DNA from: Bacilli bacterium
Lineage (GTDB): Bacteria; Bacillota_I; Bacilli_A; RFN20; CAG-826
Direction of reading: 5' to 3'
Length of the DNA: 64,000 bases
Assembly: GCA_017470115.1 (NCBI GenBank)
Contig: JAFUEZ010000003.1
Coordinates: forward strand, 62,001 to 126,000
The position numbers and the translations under genes were made by a program. The number at the start of each line of letters is the position of its first letter. The stretch's first letter is position 1. Positions 3,881 through 55,684 of this stretch are shown one piece after another. The notes beneath the pieces are model-generated. The model was given only the letters and a program-made list of their open reading frames with translations, was not told the DNA's origin and searched no databases.

Positions 3881-4171
3881 ATGGAAGAGAGATCAAGCGA
3901 TTTATATAGACAACCTGAAGACAGATTAAAATTTACAGAGCAAGAATCTGACGTTTCTTTTGATGATGAAAATTCTTCAAGCGAATCTGAGGTCGCTGAT
4001 TTTACTCCTATCCGCGAATCTCAAAAACAAGTAGAATTAACAACCGAAGAAATAGCTTTAAAAAAGAGTAAAAGAAGTTTTGGCTGGTTCGTTGCTTTCT
4101 GTATCATCGACCTCTTATTTGCTGCATATATTGTTTACATTGTAATTACTGTTTTTGCAAATTTAGGTTAA
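3881..4171 (+). CDS. Small single-span membrane protein, unknown function
   Basis: A 96-residue protein not matched to a named family. The first 60 or so residues are acidic and low in complexity (runs of S, D and E), and the C-terminus holds one long hydrophobic segment (FVAFCIIDLLFAAYIVYIVITVF, residues about 70-92) preceded by basic KKSKRSFGW, consistent with a cytoplasmic N-terminus and one transmembrane helix. It starts one base after asnS and is the last gene before the palindrome at 4235 and the pcrA promoter. It is a real ORF by spacing and codon use, but no function can be given. Confidence 0.65.
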   Translation: MEERSSDLYRQPEDRLKFTEQESDVSFDDENSSSESEVADFTPIRESQKQVELTTEEIALKKSKRSFGWFVAFCIIDLLFAAYIVYIVITVFANLG

Positions 4172-4234
4172 GATTTGCAGGTTTTTTGACAAATATTTGA
4201 AAGTTTTTGCTTAAATACAAGAACTTTTTATTTT

Positions 4235-4264
4235 TAGGTATATAAATTTTATTTTATATACCTA
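4235..4264. repeat. 12-bp perfect palindrome upstream of pcrA
   Basis: The arms TAGGTATATAAA and TTTATATACCTA are perfect complements around a 6-base loop. A T-run (4271-4276) follows after six bases, so the palindrome could be a weak terminator for the asnS operon. It also lies where the -35 region of the pcrA promoter would be, so an operator is equally possible. Confidence 0.6.
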
Positions 4265-4279
4265 AATGGCTTTTTTCAG

Positions 4280-4288
4280 TGTTATAAT
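4280..4288 (+). promoter_or_regulatory. Extended -10 promoter of pcrA, predicted leaderless
   Basis: TGTTATAAT is a full extended -10 element (TG-n-TATAAT). Exactly six bases separate it from the ATG at 4295, so the standard +1 is the A of the start codon. No Shine-Dalgarno sequence is present in the gap. No -35 hexamer is obvious, as expected for extended -10 promoters. Confidence 0.65.
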
Positions 4289-4294
4289 ATTTAT

Positions 4295-8528
<4,234 letters not shown>

Positions 8529-21503: not shown

Positions 21504-21579
21504 GGGTCTGTAGCTCAACTGGGAGAGCGCTTCCTTCGCACGGAAGAGGTAACCGATTCGACTTCGGCCAGATCCACCA
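21504..21579 (+). tRNA. tRNA-Ala, anticodon CGC
   Basis: A complete 76-base cloverleaf with encoded CCA. The acceptor GGGTCTG pairs with CAGATCC and includes the G3-U70 wobble pair, the alanine identity element. The D stem is GCTC/GAGC. The anticodon arm CTTCC-TTCGCAC-GGAAG gives CGC, reading GCG. The T loop is TTCGACT; its stem has one A-C mismatch at 49-65. In AT-rich genomes one TGC-anticodon tRNA usually serves all alanine codons, so this is an extra isoacceptor. It stands at the left edge of the accessory island. Confidence 0.93.
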
Positions 21580-21593
21580 ATTGATTATTTATT

Positions 21594-21654
21594 GTCGTTG
21601 TCCAAAGTTGGACAAAACGACTTATCCAAATAAGTCCTCGTAAGAGGGCTTTTC
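21594..21654. repeat. Palindromic repeat copy R1
   Basis: It begins 15 bases after the tRNA gene. The 18-base palindrome TTGTCCAAAGTTGGACAA is at 21598-21615. Two more hairpins follow: GACTTA/TAAGTC and CCTC-GTAA-GAGG, the last before TTTTC. The same core recurs in R2 to R6 within the island. Confidence 0.8.
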
Positions 21655-23160: not shown

Positions 23161-23185
23161 ACCGAGCGTAAAATCTCGGTTTTTT
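23161..23185 (+). terminator. Terminator after DUF4143 ATPase A
   Basis: ACCGAG and CTCGGT form a perfect six-pair stem around an eight-base loop, followed by T5. Repeat R3 begins directly after it. Confidence 0.8.
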
Positions 23186-23189
23186 CTTG

Positions 23190-23378
23190 TTCGCGAATAG
23201 ACCTCAACACGACATAATACGAATAGATAAAATTGTCCAAAAGCGGATAAGTAAGTTCAGCCAAATAAATTTATTTGTCGTTGTCCAAAGTCACTTATTC
23301 AAAATTTGACAAAAAGACTTACCGAAAATAGATGAGAGCCTTACTCTGTGGTTTTTGATATAATAAGCGCATGAACGA
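23190..23378 (+). repeat. Repeat copy R3, compound, with built-in promoter
   Basis: It runs from TTCGCGAATAG through CACGACATAATACG to the start codon of the DUF4256 gene. It holds two nested TTGTCCAAA cores, the second with TCACTTATTC inserted between the palindrome arms, then a GAGAGCCTTACTCT hairpin and the extended -10. Its last 35 or so bases, including GCATGAACGA at the start codon, match R5 almost exactly. Confidence 0.75.
23356..23364 (+). promoter_or_regulatory. Extended -10 of the DUF4256 gene, predicted leaderless
   Basis: TGATATAAT lies exactly six bases before the ATG at 23371, so +1 should be the A of the ATG. There is no ribosome-binding sequence. The same arrangement is found in repeat R5. 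Confidence 0.65.
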
Positions 23379-23899
23379 TGTTTTAGAAACAATAAAAAGC
23401 AGATTTGATCAACATTTATATAGACATGAAGGCATCAAATTGGATGATGTTTTAACTAAAATCAATAATCCCAAAACACTAGCTTCAATTAAATATATGG
23501 AAGAAACTGGTGGAGAAGTAGATGTTGCTTTTATTGCACCATTAAATCTATTAATCCTTTGTGATTTTTCTAAAGAAACACCTAAAGGCAGAAGAAGTCT
23601 TTGTTATGATGAGAAGGCTAGATTAAGTAGAAAGAAAAACGCTCCTATATCTAGTGCGATAGAAGAAGCAAACAAAAACGGCATTTTATTAATGGATTTA
23701 GATATTTATAATTATTTACAAAATATCGAAGAATTTGACTTATCAACATCAAGTTGGATAAAAAACCCCAGAGAGTATTAGAAGCAAAGGTGGTGCTTTG
23801 TTTTGTGAAAAAAGATATGGCCACATTTTCTATTTTCATAATAGTGCTGATTCATATTATTCAAACCGTGGCTTTAGAGGATATATCCTTTTAAACTAA
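23371..23899 (+). pseudogene. DUF4256 family protein, broken by a one-base frameshift
   Basis: The first frame (136 codons, stop at 23779-23781) carries the DUF4256 hallmarks MEETGGEVDVAF, ETPKGRRSLCYDEKAR and FDLSTSSWIKNP. The expected C-terminal part continues in the next frame: IRSKGGALFCEKRYGHIFYF, then SYYSNRGFRG, ending in TAA at 23897-23899. Removing one T around 23776 (GAG-T-ATT-AGA) restores a full-length protein of about 175 residues. It is either a recent pseudogene or a sequencing/assembly error. The family's function is unknown. Its promoter lies in repeat R3 and a terminator follows the true end, not the early stop. Confidence 0.85.
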
Positions 23900-23921
23900 T
23901 AAATATATAGATAAAAATATT

Positions 23922-23953
23922 AAAAAGAGCCGAGTGAAATATCTCGCTTTTTT
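23922..23953 (+). terminator. Terminator after the DUF4256 gene
   Basis: CGAG and CTCG pair around TGAAATAT, extended by A-T and G-T pairs and followed by T6. Its placement after 23899 supports the full-length reading of the frameshifted gene. Confidence 0.65.
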
Positions 23954-24055
23954 GTTCGAGAATGATTATAAACACGACATAATACGAATAGATAAAATTG
24001 TCCAAAGTTGGACAAAACGACTTATCCGGCATAGATTAGGCCTCTTCGGAGGTGC
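23954..24055. repeat. Palindromic repeat copy R4
   Basis: The longest clean copy: GTTCGAGAATG, CACGACATAATACG, the perfect palindrome TTGTCCAAAGTTGGACAA at 23998-24015, ACGACTTATCC, CATAGATTAGG, and a CCTC-TTCG-GAGG tetraloop hairpin at 24041-24052. Confidence 0.8.
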
Positions 24056-26910: not shown

Positions 26911-26935
26911 AACCTCAGAAACGTGAGGTTTTTTT
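26911..26935 (+). terminator. Terminator after pyrG
   Basis: AACCTCA and TGAGGTT form a perfect seven-pair stem around a six-base loop, followed by more Ts. Repeat R5 begins at once afterwards. Confidence 0.85.
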
Positions 26936-26936
26936 A

Positions 26937-27077
26937 TTCGCGAATGTTTATAAACACGACATAAAACGAATAGATAAAATTGTCCAAAGTCACTTATTCA
27001 AAATTGGACAAAATGACTCACCTAAAATAGATGAGAGCCTTACTCTGTGGTTTTTGATATAATAATTGCATGAACGA
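26937..27077 (+). repeat. Palindromic repeat copy R5 with built-in promoter
   Basis: It has the same order as R3: TTCGCGAATG, CACGACATAAAACG, TTGTCCAAAG with TCACTTATTC inserted before TTGGACAAAA, ATAGATGAGAGCC, CTCTGTGG, then the extended -10, and GCATGAACGA covering the start codon of the acetyltransferase gene. Confidence 0.78.
27055..27063 (+). promoter_or_regulatory. Extended -10 of the acetyltransferase gene, predicted leaderless
   Basis: TGATATAAT ends six bases before the ATG at 27070, giving a predicted +1 on the start codon. No Shine-Dalgarno sequence is present. It is the same promoter as at 23356, carried on the repeat. Confidence 0.65.
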
Positions 27078-27696
27078 AAAAGAAAAAATGCTTAAAGGGC
27101 AAATATATGACCCTGCAAACGAAGAATTGGCTAAACTTAGAGCAAAGGCTCATAAACTATGTTTAAAATATAACAATACAGTAGAAGAAGAGACCGAACA
27201 GAGACAAGAGATACTTAGAGAAATGGGGATAAAACTCGGCTCAAATATCTATTTACAAGGTCCAATTTATTTTGATTATGGGTGTTTTATTGAGATTGGA
27301 GATAATTCTTATGCCAATTTCAATCTAACTATTTTGGATACATGCCCTGTAAAAATAGGAAAGAATGTATTTATTGGTACAGGAGTGAGTATCGTAACAC
27401 CTCTGCATCCTCTTAGATATCAAGAAAGAAATATTTTCTTAAGTGATAAAGGCTACTACACAGACAATGAGTATGGTAAACCAATTACAATTGAAGATAA
27501 TTGTTGGATTGCATCTAATGTCACAATTTGTGGTGGAGTAACAATTGGCGAAGGATCAGTTATTGGAGCGGGATCTGTAGTTGTTAAATCGATTCCAAAA
27601 AATTCTTTCGCAGCAGGCAATCCTTGTCATGTTATCCGTGAAATAACTGAAAAAGATTCGGTTTTTAAGAAGCAAAATCAAGAAGCCGATAAGTGA
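27070..27696 (+). CDS. Maltose/galactoside O-acetyltransferase-like protein
   Basis: A 208-residue hexapeptide-repeat acyltransferase of the LacA/Maa/NodL group, forming a trimer with acetyl-CoA bound between left-handed beta-helices. The N-terminal maltose-acetyltransferase cap is MLKGQIYDPANEELAKLRAKAHKLCLKYN. The helix includes FDYGCFIEIGDNSYANFNLTILD, IGKNVFIGTGVSIVTPLHPL with the catalytic histidine, and IGEGSVIGAGSVVVKSIPKNSFAAGNPCHVIR. The substrate sugar cannot be told from sequence. It stands alone between repeat R5 and a terminator, as one cassette-like unit. Confidence 0.9.
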   Translation: MNEKEKMLKGQIYDPANEELAKLRAKAHKLCLKYNNTVEEETEQRQEILREMGIKLGSNIYLQGPIYFDYGCFIEIGDNSYANFNLTILDTCPVKIGKNVFIGTGVSIVTPLHPLRYQERNIFLSDKGYYTDNEYGKPITIEDNCWIASNVTICGGVTIGEGSVIGAGSVVVKSIPKNSFAAGNPCHVIREITEKDSVFKKQNQEADK

Positions 27697-31744: not shown

Positions 31745-31842
31745 TGGGTCATTTTGTTTAAAAATATGGGTCAGTTTAATTGGAAAATATGGGTCAGTTT
31801 TATTTACAAATATGGGTCAGTTTTATTGACAATTATGGGTCA
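31745..31842. repeat. Five tandem TGGGTCA units, probable IS21-family end remnant
   Basis: TGGGTCA starts at 31745, 31767, 31790, 31813 and 31836, spaced 22-23 bases, mostly within ATATGGGTCAGTTTTATT. Repeats of the terminal sequence near each end are a known feature of IS21-family elements. No istA/istB genes are present in the window, so this would be a solitary end. Confidence 0.5.
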
Positions 31843-31849
31843 GTTATTC

Positions 31850-31900
31850 AAAATTGGATAAAAAGAATTGTCCAGCATAGATTAGGTCTCTTCTGAAGTG
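31850..31900. repeat. Palindromic repeat copy R6 at the right island edge
   Basis: It contains AAAATTGGATAAAAAG, TTGTCCAGCATAGATTAGG and TCTCTTCTGAAGTG, matching the second half of R4 (CATAGATTAGGCCTCTTCGG) with a few changes. It lies just past the 3' end of the AraC gene and marks the boundary between island and glycan locus. Confidence 0.65.
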
Positions 31901-47838: not shown

Positions 47839-48447
47839 ATGGTTAATGTAAAAATTCGAATTCTACATACTTCACTAATCAAACAAAATATAACTTTTGT
47901 TCTATCTTTTGTTGATGAAAATAGAAGAAAAACGGCTGAAAAATTTGTTCATGAAAAGGATAAACTTTTGTCATTAGGAGCAGGGTTTTTAATGGAAAAA
48001 TATCTTCCAGAAGGTGAAATCAAAATAAAAGAAAGTGGAAAACCTTATTTAGAAAATGGTCCATTTTTTAATGTTTCACATTCAGAAGAATATGTTGTTT
48101 TTGTAAGCGATGAATCAAGAGAAGTAGGAGTTGATATCGAAAAAATAAATGAGAATAAAATCGATGGTATTCGCTATGTTTTAGATAAAGAAGAGAATAA
48201 GATTGAAGACATTAATGCTCTTTTTCAAGTTTGGTCAAATAAAGAAAGCCTTGTTAAATGTATTTCTTATGAGCTAAAAAACATAAAAGATGTGAAAGGA
48301 ATACCTCTAGAAGGAAAGCGAATCGTTGATGAACAAACTTATTACACAAAATCTTTAATTTTTAATGGCTACGCATTATCTTTAACTTTAAAAGGAGAAG
48401 AGCCATTCAATATAGAAATTATCAATCTCAATTCATTGGAGGATTAA
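47839..48447 (+). CDS. Sfp-type 4'-phosphopantetheinyl transferase
   Basis: Attaches the phosphopantetheine arm to the two carrier domains of the adjacent NRPS. The ATG at 47839 gives MVNVKIRILHTS, a normal N-terminus; a GTG at 47815 in the same frame is possible. 202 residues. Signature motifs are FFNVSHSEEYVV, GVDIEKINENK (magnesium-binding Asp and Glu) and VWSNKESLVKCI (the W-x-x-KE-x-x-x-K block). The NRPS gene starts four bases after its stop, with ribosome site GGAGG inside the last codons, so the two are coupled. Confidence 0.9.
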   Translation: MVNVKIRILHTSLIKQNITFVLSFVDENRRKTAEKFVHEKDKLLSLGAGFLMEKYLPEGEIKIKESGKPYLENGPFFNVSHSEEYVVFVSDESREVGVDIEKINENKIDGIRYVLDKEENKIEDINALFQVWSNKESLVKCISYELKNIKDVKGIPLEGKRIVDEQTYYTKSLIFNGYALSLTLKGEEPFNIEIINLNSLED

Positions 48448-48451
48448 TAGT

Positions 48452-51400
48452 ATGGAAAAGTATTATTTAAGTCAATCTGAACTAGGTATTTTGTTAGAGT
48501 GTTTAAATCCAACAACAAAATACAATTTGCCATCTTTAATGGAACTTGGTGAAAATCTTGATGTAAAAAAATTAAAAGAAGCAATTAATAAATTTGCTCA
48601 CGTTCATCCAGGAATTTTTACTATTCTTAGAAAAGATGATGAAGGTGGTTTTTATAAAGAATTTTTAGAAGAAGAAATTGATGTACCTTTAATTGAATTA
48701 GAGAAAATTGATAAAAAATCTTTAGTAAGGGAATTTGAATTATTTGGTTCTCATCTCTATCGTTTTGAGATCTTAAAAGTTAAAAATATTTATTATTTAT
48801 TCTTTGATTTCCATCACATTATAGCTGATGGCGGATCAATAAAATTATTTATTGATTCTCTTGAAACACTATATAAAAATGGTGAAATTCAAAACGAAAA
48901 ACAAAACGCATTTGAATACGGAAATTTTGAAAAAACCCTGCAGAACTCCACTGAATTTAAAAAAGCAGAGGCATATTACAAGGAAAAATATAGTGGAATT
49001 GATGCTGAATCAACTATAGTTGAAGATGTAAAAGAAGAAAAAATTTCACATAAAACAATTAGAAAAGAGTTAAAAGTTTCTGCTGAGGAAGTTAAGAAAT
49101 TTACTAAAAAAGAAGGCATCAAAACTAGTGCATATTTTATCAGTGCTTTCTTATTCTTACTTAGCAAAGTTAATATGGATAAAGAAGCAATTATTGCAAC
49201 AATACATAACGGGAGAAGCGAAGAACTTAAAAATACATTTGGTATGTTTGTTAGAACTTTCCCTCTTTATATCAATTTTGAAGGCATTAATGATTCAAAA
49301 GAAATGCTTCATAAAGTAAATGAAGAATTGACTCATAATGTAGAAAACGATTTGTACTCATTCTCTCAAGTTGTTTCAAATTTAGGCGTAAATCCTGAAA
49401 TCTTATTTGCTTATCAAGGCGATTACATGTTTAAAACTAACTTCTTGGGTAAGGAAGTTGTTGCTGAACAACTTGAAGAAAAAGATGGGAAAGGAATCAT
49501 GTCAATTGAAGTCCATCGCTATAACGATAAATTCCAAATTTGGTTTGAATATCGTAGTGACTTGTATTTAGACAGTTCAATCAATCAATTAATCGATTTA
49601 TATGACATCACCCTTGAAAAATTACTTGATTCACCAATCGCATTAAATGAATTTGATCTTTTAGATGATCATCAACTAGAAGTTTTGGATAGCTTTAATG
49701 ATGTAGATATATCAGAAGTTGAACTCGATAAAATGGTTTTAGATAAATTCGACTACTGGCTAGAAAAAGAACCAAACAAAGAATTGGTTATTTTCAAAGA
49801 TAGAAGATATACCTACAAGCAAGTTGATCTTATTTCAAATAGAATCGCAAATGAGTTAGTAAAACTTGGTGTAAAAGCTGAAGATAAAGTTTCAATTTTG
49901 ATTTCAAAGAGCGAATTCGTTGTTATTGCTTCCTTAGGCGTTATTAAATCCTGTGCAGCTTATCAACCACTTGATGTATCTTACCCAAAAGAAAGATTAA
50001 ATTTCATGGTCAAAGATGCTGCAAGTAAAGTCGTCATTGCTGAAAGACAATACATTGATTTACTTGATGAATATAAAGGCCCAGTTATTTATCTTGATGA
50101 ATTGGATAAATTAAAAGATGAATCTCGACCAATAAATAGACCAAAACCAAGCGATCTTTTCATCATGCTTTATACATCTGGATCAACAGGTGTACCAAAA
50201 GGAGTTATGCTTGAACACCACAATATTATGTCGGCTTGTGGAGTTGATATTAAATTTAGAAATCTTCAACACGATGCTCATGTAAGCGCCTATGCTTCAT
50301 ATGGATTTGATGCTGATATGTTTGATTTATATCCAACAATTTGTGTTGGTGGCACAATCTATATTATTCCTGAAGAGATGCGTTTAGATTTGATTGAGTT
50401 AAATAAATATTTGAACGAAAACAGGATAACTGACGCATTTTTCACAACTCAAGTTGGAAGACAACTTGTTAGTGAACTTAGTTTTGAAACAATTAGAACT
50501 ATATCAGTTGGAGGCGAAAAACTTGTCCCAATTAACCCTCCAAAAAATTACAAATTATACAATTTATATGGCCCAACTGAAGGCACAATTTATTGTTCAG
50601 GATTTATAGTTGATAAGCTCTATCATAGAATTCCAATCGGTCACGCTTTAAAAGATTATAAATTCTATGTTTTAGATGAGAACAAGAAACGTGTACCTTA
50701 TTTAGTTAAGGGGGAATTATATATTTCAGGTCCTCAAGTCTCTAGAGGTTATTTAAATAGAGATGAAGAAAATAAAAAAGCATTCTTAACAAACCCATTT
50801 GATAAAGATCCTGTTTTCCATAATCTTTATAAAACGGGTGATATTGTTAGATTCTTGCCAAATGGAGAAATCGATTTTATTGGAAGAAAAGATTTCCAAG
50901 TCAAACTCAGAGGATTTAGAGTTGAACTTTCTGAAGTCGAACAAATTATTAGAGAATATCCTGATATTAAGGATGCAACCGTAAAAGATTTTGCTGATCC
51001 TGCTGGAGTCAAATATATTGTTGGTTATATTGTTAGTGATAAAAAGATTGACATTGATGACTTAAAAGCCTTCATCAAGAGCAAGAAACCTCCATATATG
51101 GTTCCTCCTTACATCATGCAACTTGAAAGTATTCCATTAAACCAAAACCAAAAAGTTAATAAGAAAGCTTTACCAGTTCCTGAATTAAAGGTTGAAGAAG
51201 TTGTTGCTCCATCAAACGAAGATGAACAAAAGATTTTTGACATTATGAAAGATATTTTAGGTCACTCATCATTTGGTGTTACAACAGATATTTATGAAGC
51301 TGGTTTAACTTCGATTTCATCAATTACTTTAACGGTTAGATTATCAAAAGCTTTCAATAAACAAATTACAAATCAAGATTTGAGTTCAAATCCAACAATT

Positions 51401-54400
51401 CGTGATTTAGCTGTTCTTTTAAATAATAAAGAAGATGAAAAAACTTATGAAATTCGTGAAGAATATCCATTAACAAAGACTCAAGAAGGAATTTTTATTG
51501 AATCAATTGCTAAACCAGGAAGCACAAATTACAACATTCCATTATTATTTAAAATTGATAAATCAATCGATTTAAATAAACTTAAAGAAAGCGTTATTAA
51601 AGCAATAAAAGCGCACACTTATCTACTTTTGAATCTTGCAATGGATGATGATGGAAACATTAAAGCTTTAAGAAAAGATGAAGAACCAAAAGTTGAAATC
51701 TTAAAGGTTGATAAACTCGACAAGGCCTCTTTAGTTAGACCATTTGAAATTGTTGGTGGTTCTTTATATCGAGCTGAAATTTATGAAACTAAAAAAGATA
51801 ATTATCTTTTCTTAGATTTCCACCACATAATTTGCGATGGTACTAGTGAAGTAATAATCTTAAATGACATCAATAAAGCATATTCAGGTGAAGAAATCGA
51901 AAAAGAAGAATTCACTGGTTTTGAACTTGCATTAGAAGAACAAGATAAACGCGCTTCAAATCAATATGAAGAAGCAAAGAATTATTATTCTTCATTATTA
52001 AAAGATGTTGAAGAAGGTTATTTATTAAAGAAAGATTTAAAGACAAAAGATGAAGCAAAACTTCACGTCGACGATATTTATTCTTCCTTGGATGTTGATG
52101 TAATTAAATCATTCGCTTCTAAAAACGGATTAACATTAAATGCGATAACCAACTTTGTTTTTGGCTTTACATTCTCTAAATTTATTTATAAAGAAGATGC
52201 ACTTTTTGTCACGATTTATAATGGCAGAAACAGTTCAAAAACAATGAATACTGTCTCAATGATGGTTAAAACACTACCTGTTTATATTAAATATAAAGAA
52301 GAAGATGAGATCATTCCTTTACTTGAATCCGTAAAGAAACAATTAGAAAATTCTGAATTGAATGATATTTATTCTTTCCAAGAAATCGCTTCAACATTTA
52401 ATATTACAAGCGATGTAATGTTTGCATATCAAGGTGATTTATTTACATTTGATACAATTGCAAATAAAAAAGCAGAATCAGTTATTTTAGATTCTGATGA
52501 TGCAAAATCACTCTTCTCATTAGATGTATTTATTGAAGATAATAAATTCAAATTACATTTTGAATACGATGAATCTCAATATGGCGTTGAAACAATTAAA
52601 TCATTTGCTCGTTTATTTGAATTGGTATTAGAAGAAGTGAGCAAAAAGAAATATATTCATGAAATTAATTGTTTACCTGAAGAAGATAAAAAATTATACG
52701 AAAAATTCAATCAAACTTATGTCGAGCCATCAAATAAAGTTTATAGCAAGCTTGTTGAAGAAATGGTTGAAAAATATCCAGACAATTTAGCTGTTGCAGG
52801 AAAAGATGGTGAATATACATATCAAAAGTTTAACGAAGCAGCAAACAAAATTGCTCATGCTTTGCTTGATAATAAAGTAGAATTAGGCGATAGAGTTATT
52901 ATGCTCATGCCAAGAAGAGCAAGTGCTTATATCGTCAGAGAAGGTATTTTAAAATCTGGTGGGGCATTTGTTGCTATCGATCCAAAATATCCAGATGATA
53001 GAGTTGAATACATTATTACCGATAGTGATTCAAAAGTTTTGATCACTACAAAAGAAATCGAAGAAGATAAAAAAGAGCTTTTAAAGAAAACTGGAATCAA
53101 GGTTTTACGAATCGAAGAGATTTTAGAATCTAAGAAAATTAGTAATCCAAATGTTGATATTCCAATGTCGTCTTTAGCTTATATTATTTACACTTCTGGC
53201 AGTACTGGAAAACCAAAAGGAGTGATGATTTCTCACAAAAACCTTGCTAATTACGTATTAAATGGCTCAAATTTAGCAACTAGAGAATATCGTATCATCA
53301 AAGGAAAAGTCTCATCTTGCTCATTTGCTTCCTTTGCTTTTGATGCTTCTTTACAAGAAGAATGTGTTGTTTTATCTCATGGCTATCAAGCTGTAATTGC
53401 AAGTGAAGAAGAAATTGAAAATCCATTATTACTTTCTGAAACACTTAAAAAATATGGCGTTAATATTATGTTCTTAACTCCTTCATATGTTTCAAATGTT
53501 TTAGATACACCTGAATTCTTAGAAGCTTTGAAGAATTTCCAAGTTCTTGATATGGGTGCAGAAGCAGTTCCTTATGAACTAGTTGAAAGAATTAGAAAGT
53601 TAGGAATTAATTGTTTAATTGATAATGGTTATGGACCAACTGAAACAACAATCACATCATCAATGACATTTATTGAAGATAAATATGTCACGATTGGAAC
53701 ACCTGTTGCTAATACAAAATATTATATTTTGGATAAAGCAGGACATGTCCTTCCAATTAATGCAATTGGAGATTTAACAATTGCTGGAGATAGTGTTGGT
53801 ATTGGTTATTACAAATTAGAAGAAAAGACCAAAGCAGCTTTCATAGAAGTAAATGGCGAACGTGCTTATAGAAGTGGTGATCTTGCAAGAGTTAATAGCG
53901 AAGGCAACACAGAATTCTTTGGCCGATTAGATAATCAAATTAAACTTCATGGTTTAAGAATTGAATTAGATGAAATTGAAAAAGTTTGTAATTCGCATCC
54001 AGATGTCACAAGATGTATTGTTTTGGTTAAAAATAACGCAATTGATGGCGATTATCTTGCTTTATATTACACAGCAAGTAAAGAATTAAGCAAAGAGGAA
54101 TTAACTGCGTTTATGGCAAAATCATTAACGCCATATATGATCCCTAAAGCCATGATGCAACTCGAAAAAATTCCACTTACACCAAATGGAAAAATTGATA
54201 AGAAAGCATTACCAGAAATTACAACAACTTCATCAAATAAAGAGAAAAAAGCTCCACGAAATGCCGCTGAAAAAGCAATCTGTAACATTTTTGCTAAAGC
54301 ACTCGGCTTAGAAAGTGTTGGAGTTGATGAAGATTTCTTTGAACTTGGTGGAACTTCATTAAGTGCATCAAAAGTTGCAATGTTGGCTTTAAAAGAAGGC

Positions 54401-55684
54401 TTACCAATTGCTTATAAAGATGTTTTTGATAATTCAACAGCAGAAGAATTGGCTGCTTTAGTTAATAAAGATCAACCAGTTGTTGAAAAAGTCAAAGAAA
54501 AAGAAGTTGAAGAAAGTAAATTCCCTGCTTTAGAGAAGAATAAGGTTGAATTTGTTGATGAAATCCATAAAGAAAAAGATTTAGGTACTGTTTTACTTGC
54601 TGGAGCAACTGGATTCTTAGGCATCCACATCTTAAAAGAATTAATTGATGAACATGTCGAAACATATATTTTAGTTAGAAGTAAACATATCTCATTAAAT
54701 AGTAGAATGTCGCTTTTACTTGAATATTATTTTGATAATCCATTTGAAGAAGAACTTAATTCTTATATTCATATTATTGAAGGCGATATCGCTGATGAAG
54801 ATTTGAAGGCAAAATTAAAAGATATCAAATTTAATACTTTGATTAATGCTGCAGCTATTGTCAAACATTTCTCAAATGACGATATTATCGAAAGAATTAA
54901 TGTTGGTGGAGTTAAAAATCTCATTGATATTGCTTTAGAACATAAAGCTAGAATGATTCAAATTTCTACTTTATCTGTTGCTGGAGAAAATATTGATAAT
55001 AAATTCCCAGAACATTTCCGTATGAAAGAATATCAACTCGATATTGGACAAGATATTTCAAATAAATACATCAATTCCAAATTTAATGGCGAAGCAGCAA
55101 TGCTTGAAGCAATCCATGATAAAGGATTAGATGGAAAAATCATTAGAGTTGGCAATTTGATGAGTAGACAAAGCGATGGTGAATTCCAAGTTAATTCGAT
55201 TACTAACGGCTTTATGCGTGGATTAAGAGGATATTATGCACTTGGTAAATTCCCAATTTCATCTTTAGATGAAACAACTGATTTCTCACCAATTGATGAA
55301 GTAGCAAAAACAATTTTAGTTTTAGCAACAGCTCCAAAAGAATTCACTGTATTCCATAGCGCAAATTCACATCCTGTTGAAATGGGTGATGTCATTGAAG
55401 CGATGAATGAATGTGGTTTACACATTGATAACGTTAAAGATGAAGAATTCATGGATGCAGTTTTTGAAGCAACAAATGATGAAGAAAAGAGTAAGAAAGT
55501 ATCTGCATTAATTACTTATACAAGTAAAGATAACCATTCACATTCTTACATTTTGACTGATAATAGTTTCTCAATCAAAGCACTATATCGTTTAGGATAT
55601 AAGTGGCCAATTACCGATAAAGAGTATTTAATTAAAGCTATTAAATCTTTAATTTCACTTGAATTCTTTGAAAGGGACGATTAA
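48452..55684 (+). CDS. Two-module non-ribosomal peptide synthetase with terminal reductase (C-A-T-C-A-T-R)
   Basis: A 2,410-residue synthetase expected to release a dipeptide as an aldehyde or alcohol. C1 has HHIIADG at 121-127. A1 has YTSGSTG from 574, YGPTEG at 706-711 and a final NQKVNKKALP lysine. T1 carries the pantetheine site Ser954 in GLTS. C2 has HHIICDG at 1124-1130. A2 has YTSGSTG from 1580 and YGPTET at 1727-1732. T2 carries Ser1969 in ELGGTS. The reductase has GATGFLG at 2051-2057 and catalytic YINSK at 2206-2210. A C domain in the loading position suggests N-acylation. There is no epimerase or thioesterase. It overlaps the MATE gene by one base (TAATG). Confidence 0.96.
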   Translation: MEKYYLSQSELGILLECLNPTTKYNLPSLMELGENLDVKKLKEAINKFAHVHPGIFTILRKDDEGGFYKEFLEEEIDVPLIELEKIDKKSLVREFELFGSHLYRFEILKVKNIYYLFFDFHHIIADGGSIKLFIDSLETLYKNGEIQNEKQNAFEYGNFEKTLQNSTEFKKAEAYYKEKYSGIDAESTIVEDVKEEKISHKTIRKELKVSAEEVKKFTKKEGIKTSAYFISAFLFLLSKVNMDKEAIIATIHNGRSEELKNTFGMFVRTFPLYINFEGINDSKEMLHKVNEELTHNVENDLYSFSQVVSNLGVNPEILFAYQGDYMFKTNFLGKEVVAEQLEEKDGKGIMSIEVHRYNDKFQIWFEYRSDLYLDSSINQLIDLYDITLEKLLDSPIALNEFDLLDDHQLEVLDSFNDVDISEVELDKMVLDKFDYWLEKEPNKELVIFKDRRYTYKQVDLISNRIANELVKLGVKAEDKVSILISKSEFVVIASLGVIKSCAAYQPLDVSYPKERLNFMVKDAASKVVIAERQYIDLLDEYKGPVIYLDELDKLKDESRPINRPKPSDLFIMLYTSGSTGVPKGVMLEHHNIMSACGVDIKFRNLQHDAHVSAYASYGFDADMFDLYPTICVGGTIYIIPEEMRLDLIELNKYLNENRITDAFFTTQVGRQLVSELSFETIRTISVGGEKLVPINPPKNYKLYNLYGPTEGTIYCSGFIVDKLYHRIPIGHALKDYKFYVLDENKKRVPYLVKGELYISGPQVSRGYLNRDEENKKAFLTNPFDKDPVFHNLYKTGDIVRFLPNGEIDFIGRKDFQVKLRGFRVELSEVEQIIREYPDIKDATVKDFADPAGVKYIVGYIVSDKKIDIDDLKAFIKSKKPPYMVPPYIMQLESIPLNQNQKVNKKALPVPELKVEEVVAPSNEDEQKIFDIMKDILGHSSFGVTTDIYEAGLTSISSITLTVRLSKAFNKQITNQDLSSNPTIRDLAVLLNNKEDEKTYEIREEYPLTKTQEGIFIESIAKPGSTNYNIPLLFKIDKSIDLNKLKESVIKAIKAHTYLLLNLAMDDDGNIKALRKDEEPKVEILKVDKLDKASLVRPFEIVGGSLYRAEIYETKKDNYLFLDFHHIICDGTSEVIILNDINKAYSGEEIEKEEFTGFELALEEQDKRASNQYEEAKNYYSSLLKDVEEGYLLKKDLKTKDEAKLHVDDIYSSLDVDVIKSFASKNGLTLNAITNFVFGFTFSKFIYKEDALFVTIYNGRNSSKTMNTVSMMVKTLPVYIKYKEEDEIIPLLESVKKQLENSELNDIYSFQEIASTFNITSDVMFAYQGDLFTFDTIANKKAESVILDSDDAKSLFSLDVFIEDNKFKLHFEYDESQYGVETIKSFARLFELVLEEVSKKKYIHEINCLPEEDKKLYEKFNQTYVEPSNKVYSKLVEEMVEKYPDNLAVAGKDGEYTYQKFNEAANKIAHALLDNKVELGDRVIMLMPRRASAYIVREGILKSGGAFVAIDPKYPDDRVEYIITDSDSKVLITTKEIEEDKKELLKKTGIKVLRIEEILESKKISNPNVDIPMSSLAYIIYTSGSTGKPKGVMISHKNLANYVLNGSNLATREYRIIKGKVSSCSFASFAFDASLQEECVVLSHGYQAVIASEEEIENPLLLSETLKKYGVNIMFLTPSYVSNVLDTPEFLEALKNFQVLDMGAEAVPYELVERIRKLGINCLIDNGYGPTETTITSSMTFIEDKYVTIGTPVANTKYYILDKAGHVLPINAIGDLTIAGDSVGIGYYKLEEKTKAAFIEVNGERAYRSGDLARVNSEGNTEFFGRLDNQIKLHGLRIELDEIEKVCNSHPDVTRCIVLVKNNAIDGDYLALYYTASKELSKEELTAFMAKSLTPYMIPKAMMQLEKIPLTPNGKIDKKALPEITTTSSNKEKKAPRNAAEKAICNIFAKALGLESVGVDEDFFELGGTSLSASKVAMLALKEGLPIAYKDVFDNSTAEELAALVNKDQPVVEKVKEKEVEESKFPALEKNKVEFVDEIHKEKDLGTVLLAGATGFLGIHILKELIDEHVETYILVRSKHISLNSRMSLLLEYYFDNPFEEELNSYIHIIEGDIADEDLKAKLKDIKFNTLINAAAIVKHFSNDDIIERINVGGVKNLIDIALEHKARMIQISTLSVAGENIDNKFPEHFRMKEYQLDIGQDISNKYINSKFNGEAAMLEAIHDKGLDGKIIRVGNLMSRQSDGEFQVNSITNGFMRGLRGYYALGKFPISSLDETTDFSPIDEVAKTILVLATAPKEFTVFHSANSHPVEMGDVIEAMNECGLHIDNVKDEEFMDAVFEATNDEEKSKKVSALITYTSKDNHSHSYILTDNSFSIKALYRLGYKWPITDKEYLIKAIKSLISLEFFERDD

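Follow-up and report, generated by a model that had tools for sequence, protein, structure and literature searches.

The 64-kb window, that is the whole stretch of DNA that was analysed, contains three genes with an extended -10 promoter motif exactly six bases upstream of the start codon. The arrangement TGnTATAAT-N6-ATG occurs exactly three times, starting at 4280, 23356 and 27055 as given in the initial annotation, and precedes pcrA (the product of which matches Pfam UvrD-helicase at 6.8e-80, and also UvrD_C), a DUF4256 gene and an acetyltransferase gene. These genes had also been described as lacking a Shine-Dalgarno (SD) sequence, and our motif check agrees: SD was scored as GGAG, GAGG, AGGA or AAGG, and none of these motifs is present upstream of any of the three. 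The features are:

4233..4276, + strand, hairpin (stem of 14 bp), then TGGC and a run of six T (folding energy -14.7 kcal/mol, z -5.1 relative to shuffled sequences)
4280..4288, + strand, extended -10 promoter TGTTATAAT of pcrA, 6 nt upstream of the ATG
4295..6523, + strand, pcrA, UvrD/PcrA helicase, predicted leaderless, without SD, predicted +1 at the A of the ATG (4295)
23281..23378, + strand, copy 1 of a 98-nt repeat (direct repeat D3), with the DUF4256 promoter and start codon
23356..23364, + strand, extended -10 for DUF4256, TGATATAAT, 6 nt upstream of the ATG
23371..23781, + strand, DUF4256 gene, predicted leaderless (Pfam DUF4256 1.8e-39, profile positions 2-134 of 173)
26980..27077, + strand, copy 2 of the 98-nt repeat (direct repeat D3), with the acetyltransferase promoter and start codon
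27055..27063, + strand, extended -10 for the acetyltransferase, TGATATAAT, 6 nt upstream of the ATG
27070..27696, + strand, hexapeptide (maltose-type) acetyltransferase gene, predicted leaderless, without SD (Pfam Mac 2.5e-16, Hexapep)

Under a first-order Markov model 0.13 exact matches are expected in the window, as opposed to the three observed, and the maximum in any of 100 Markov shuffles was one. When one mismatch is tolerated, the four sites observed are not above chance (4.3 expected). The repetition of the exact spacing, which had been considered conspicuous, is therefore above chance in the window, but it involves fewer events than it seems to: 23356 and 27055 both sit in copies of one 98-nt repeat, which are 94% identical and run on into the opening codons of two genes that are unrelated, so that they are one promoter duplicated and count once, and only two independent sites are present in the window. 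The weaker but similar layouts proposed for further genes were mostly not recovered, since the LytTR regulator (14806), AraC (32918, minus strand) and FNT transporter (60769) genes have no recognisable -10 at spacings 6-10. In the case of the phosphopantetheinyl transferase gene (ATG at 47839) the proposal is arguable, with TGATAAGAT at spacing 10. This gene is followed by that of a 2410-aa nonribosomal peptide synthetase (47839-55684 for both) in which condensation, adenylation and carrier domains each occur twice, together with an NAD-binding reductase-like end, which is notable for a 1.4-Mb genome.

A genome-wide search with the 34-nt core of the 98-nt repeat yielded no further occurrence. 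The DUF4256 gene, which adjoins one of the leaderless promoters, is probably broken by a frame shift, because coding for the C-terminal portion of the family seems to resume in another frame past the stop at 23781 (23371-23900). The same part of the window harbors imperfect, partly palindromic long intergenic repeats with the core GTCCAAAGTTGGACAAAACGAC (21598-21654, 23183-23378, 23948-24054, 26930-27077 and 31844-31900), which follow a tRNA-Ala gene (21504-21579), separate individual accessory genes (DUF4143 ATPase, DUF4256, RhuM, acetyltransferase) from one another and also surround pyrG. The family looks like a cassette-type array, and the genome contains no copies of its 28-nt core beyond this family when up to three mismatches are allowed. 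Four short direct tandem repeat units of the AAATATGGGTCAGTTTTATT type with a 23-bp period are located at 31752-31843.

Genome-wide, the pattern TGNTATAATN{2,14}ATG is found at 23 sites, seven of which have a spacing of 6, with zero to three sites at any other spacing. The initial annotation had suggested scanning the starts of the genome for an excess at six bases. The sample scanned covers 460 kb of the 1.41-Mb genome (33%) and 336 open reading frames (ORFs) of at least 100 aa, called mechanically with the first ATG as the start; it is non-random, its stretches having been picked partly around the 23 sites. Within it, an exact TATAAT lies six bases upstream of the first ATG in 15 of the 336 ORFs versus 0.9 expected (P about 1e-13), so that the excess is indeed present, and no spacing-6 peak was seen among 16,245 non-start ATGs, 11 of which have the box at this distance. 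Four genes have it at spacing 7 and three at spacing 8, again with 0.9 expected per spacing, giving 22 observed versus 2.7 expected for spacings 6-8 pooled. An SD is found in none of these 22 genes, as compared to 172 of the 314 others (Fisher P 6e-8), and an upstream gene less than 25 bp away likewise in none of them, as compared to 44% of the others; half have a codirectional upstream neighbor. The TG of the extended -10 is present at eight of the 22 sites, the best -35 matches reach only 2-4 of six bases, and pcrA and the two repeat-borne sites have TGn directly 5' of TATAAT.

An SD is present in about half of the genes of this genome (G000), which splits into SD-less genes with a -10 at spacings 6-10 and SD-led genes whose -10 lies at spacing 13 or above. 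In six genomes of the genus pooled, the SD-less genes with a -10 number one at spacings 3-5 and 54 at spacings 6-8, and such a sharp lower edge, at the position where +1 is the A of the ATG, would be expected for leaderless transcripts. With one-mismatch extended -10s included, 29 of the 336 genes in the sample are SD-less at spacings 6-10 (roughly 3 expected), and on this basis about 8% of genes, roughly one in twelve, very probably yield mRNAs with no leader or one of at most 4 nt. When every in-frame start was scanned with looser settings, a few GTG or TTG candidates emerged, the -10 matches of which are weak or internal. Members of the class identified by Pfam include PcrA, DnaX, DUF4256, the acetyltransferase, a LytTR response regulator, a mechanosensitive channel and a PI-PLC-X-domain protein, as well as a ThiF-family protein whose box is the weaker TATATT; UDP-galactopyranose mutase-like, LysR-like and AraC-like proteins are added by N-terminal sequence only.

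For pcrA, TGnTANNNT is found at spacings 6-10 and without an SD in every one of the 26 genomes of the genus, the PcrA proteins of the other 25 being 50-84% identical; the nearest named record, a MAG of an 'uncultured Mollicutes bacterium', is 83% identical. Strict conservation of the 6-nt pcrA spacing was rejected, as the genus uses 6, 7, 8, 9 and 10. The exact six occurs in only three of the 26 genomes, the remainder having 7, 8, 9 or 10, and the conserved property of pcrA would therefore be a leader of 0-4 nt. Thus, the six-base spacing put forward in the initial annotation holds as a peak in this genome, but is not universal in the genus, where many mRNAs may carry a leader of 1-4 nt rather than none. 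The pcrA layout is mostly absent from the order's other genera and families, many of which have an SD or a more extended upstream region, the exceptions being G043 and G056 with spacing 7 and G053 with a weaker site at 6. The hairpin (4233-4266) and its T run (4271-4276), directly upstream of the pcrA promoter, probably act as the intrinsic terminator of a gene that ends at 4171, which would isolate pcrA from that gene. Several sister genera of the family (pcrA upstream regions L083, L086, L088, L090 and L092) carry an ATATTGC-NNN-GCAATAT-type palindrome directly 5' of the pcrA ATG and close to the promoter region, which is a possible operator.

Related species differ in whether dnaX is predicted to have a leader. 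All ten congeners aligned share its promoter core GTGTATAAT unchanged; the -10 lies 16-19 nt from the ATG in eight of them, several of which carry AAGG, as the leader of G008 does, or AGGAG, and 6 nt from it in G000 and its sister G034, and dnaX is predicted to be leaderless in G017 too. The shared core next to differing leaders supports the identity of the promoter, and the simplest reading of the alignment is that the promoter was kept and the leader deleted.

Start-anchored histograms place the class in G009 and G032 of the same genus and, with a peak at 7, in G043 of a related genus. They are suggestive for G020 (f3) and weak or unproven for G085 and G056 (f5), and the class was not found in the histograms of G048 (f4) and G065 (f3/g36), so that the predicted leaderless pattern is patchy in the order outside the genus. 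Spacing 4 proved imperfect as a cross-genome control and was set aside for these histograms: the resulting ratios (2.2 for f1 and 2.2 for f5 versus 0.58 for f3/g36, 0.41 for f4 and 0.47 for f8 in this order, and 0.3 to 2.3 across the families of the class) are comparable between lineages only, because TAT-AAT frames in coding DNA shift the background of 4 versus 6. The distance from the -10 to the ATG is mostly 6 in G000, 6-10 and centered on 8-9 in G009, and 7 in the related genus of G043. A joint shift of the spacing across genes between species of the genus is a doubtful proposition; if true, the choice of start, or the tolerance of leaders of 1-4 nt, would evolve genome-wide, and the leaderless state would arise repeatedly via deletion of SD leaders, as dnaX seems to show.

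Several other explanations of these data have to be considered. At 30% GC, TATAAT is expected near an ATG, and the three window sites might simply be the best ones picked. The one-mismatch count fits such an account, but the exact matches in the window and the P value from the genome sample do not, and the conservation of the pcrA layout in 26 genomes excludes chance for that gene; as a general explanation its probability is close to nil. It is also very improbable that the true starts lie downstream, with the spacing-6 ATG unused and ordinary SD-containing leaders in front of the genes. Mechanical assignment of starts to the first ATG leaves room for such an error, but the N-termini of PcrA, which begins a few residues ahead of a conserved LN.KQ motif in all congeners, and of DnaX (MSYLALYRKYRS) match their orthologs from the first residue, and chance ATGs show no peak at exactly 6.

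A somewhat less remote, but still unlikely, alternative accepts the promoters as real and supposes that additional upstream promoters give longer SD-less transcripts, on which translation mainly relies. Dual promoters are common in bacteria, and the codirectional neighbors upstream of half of the 22 genes would suit such an arrangement. However, with an SD in none of the 22 a longer transcript would offer no SD either, the upstream gene is at least 25 bp away in all 22, and a terminator-like hairpin precedes pcrA. The leaderless reading of the initial annotation is instead supported by the six-base peak, the near-empty spacings 3-5, the exclusion of SDs and the non-operon positions, and further by the pcrA hairpin, the genus-wide pcrA layout and the dnaX orthologs. 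A start of transcription at the AUG is thus highly likely, the 5' ends being inferred from sequence.

On this leaderless reading, RNA polymerase would start on the ATG or within about four bases of it at extended -10 promoters of the primary sigma factor (sigma-70 type), and pcrA and roughly 8% of genes would give mRNAs that are leaderless or nearly so and have no SD. The 5'-terminal AUG most likely binds the ribosome directly (70S with initiator tRNA and IF2), by analogy with what is established for other leaderless mRNAs (references in PMC10568206 and PMC6431027). The class would coexist with normal SD-led genes, which have leaders of about 10 nt or longer. A search of the 96%-complete genome for S1 domains returned one such domain in each of three separate open frames (731, 769 and 129 aa) and no multi-S1-domain protein, and therefore ribosomal protein S1 may be absent.

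Leaderless initiation is often viewed as a minor curiosity in Firmicutes beyond a few studied genera. The statement in the initial annotation that leaderless mRNAs are usually thought rare in this phylum is too strong, given published shares of 8.6-9% for streptococci (PMC6431027) and, for some mycoplasmas, of about 16-18% (PMC10568206; PMC3160421). In M. gallisepticum, nine leaderless transcripts are known. As leaderless mRNAs have been published for both groups, the phenomenon is known and the lineage is the new case: no relevant earlier report for related uncultured or Tenericutes lineages was found in the open-access literature. The present analysis adds an uncultured lineage with a reduced genome and a predicted share of about 8% leaderless genes, patchy in its order. 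The dnaX genes with and without a leader constitute natural pairs that could reveal how SD genes turn leaderless, and start finders that require an SD may misplace such starts.

Leaderless genes of Firmicutes have been assigned to two clades, Lactobacillales and Mycoplasma (Zheng et al., 2011; PMC3160421). As in the TA-led genes of these clades, a Pribnow-like signal is located about 10-12 nt 5' of the start without an SD, and leaderless genes are mixed with SD-led ones; unlike those clades, the genome described here represents an uncultured lineage, the nearest named record being the Mollicutes MAG mentioned above. The predicted share of leaderless genes is similar to that in Streptococcus pyogenes, S. 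agalactiae and S. pneumoniae, where leadered genes also dominate and the leaderless state is likewise conserved between species, but there it was measured by dRNA-seq, whereas here it is deduced from sequence (PMC6431027). In Mycoplasma pneumoniae 16% of mRNAs have a 5' UTR of at most 8 nt, and very short leaders occur alongside true leaderless mRNAs in a reduced genome, as would be the case here (PMC10568206). M. pneumoniae also lacks S1, which parallels the lack of a multi-S1-domain protein in this genome, although a link is unproven; by contrast, SD genes make up 8.1% in M. pneumoniae and about half here (PMC10568206).
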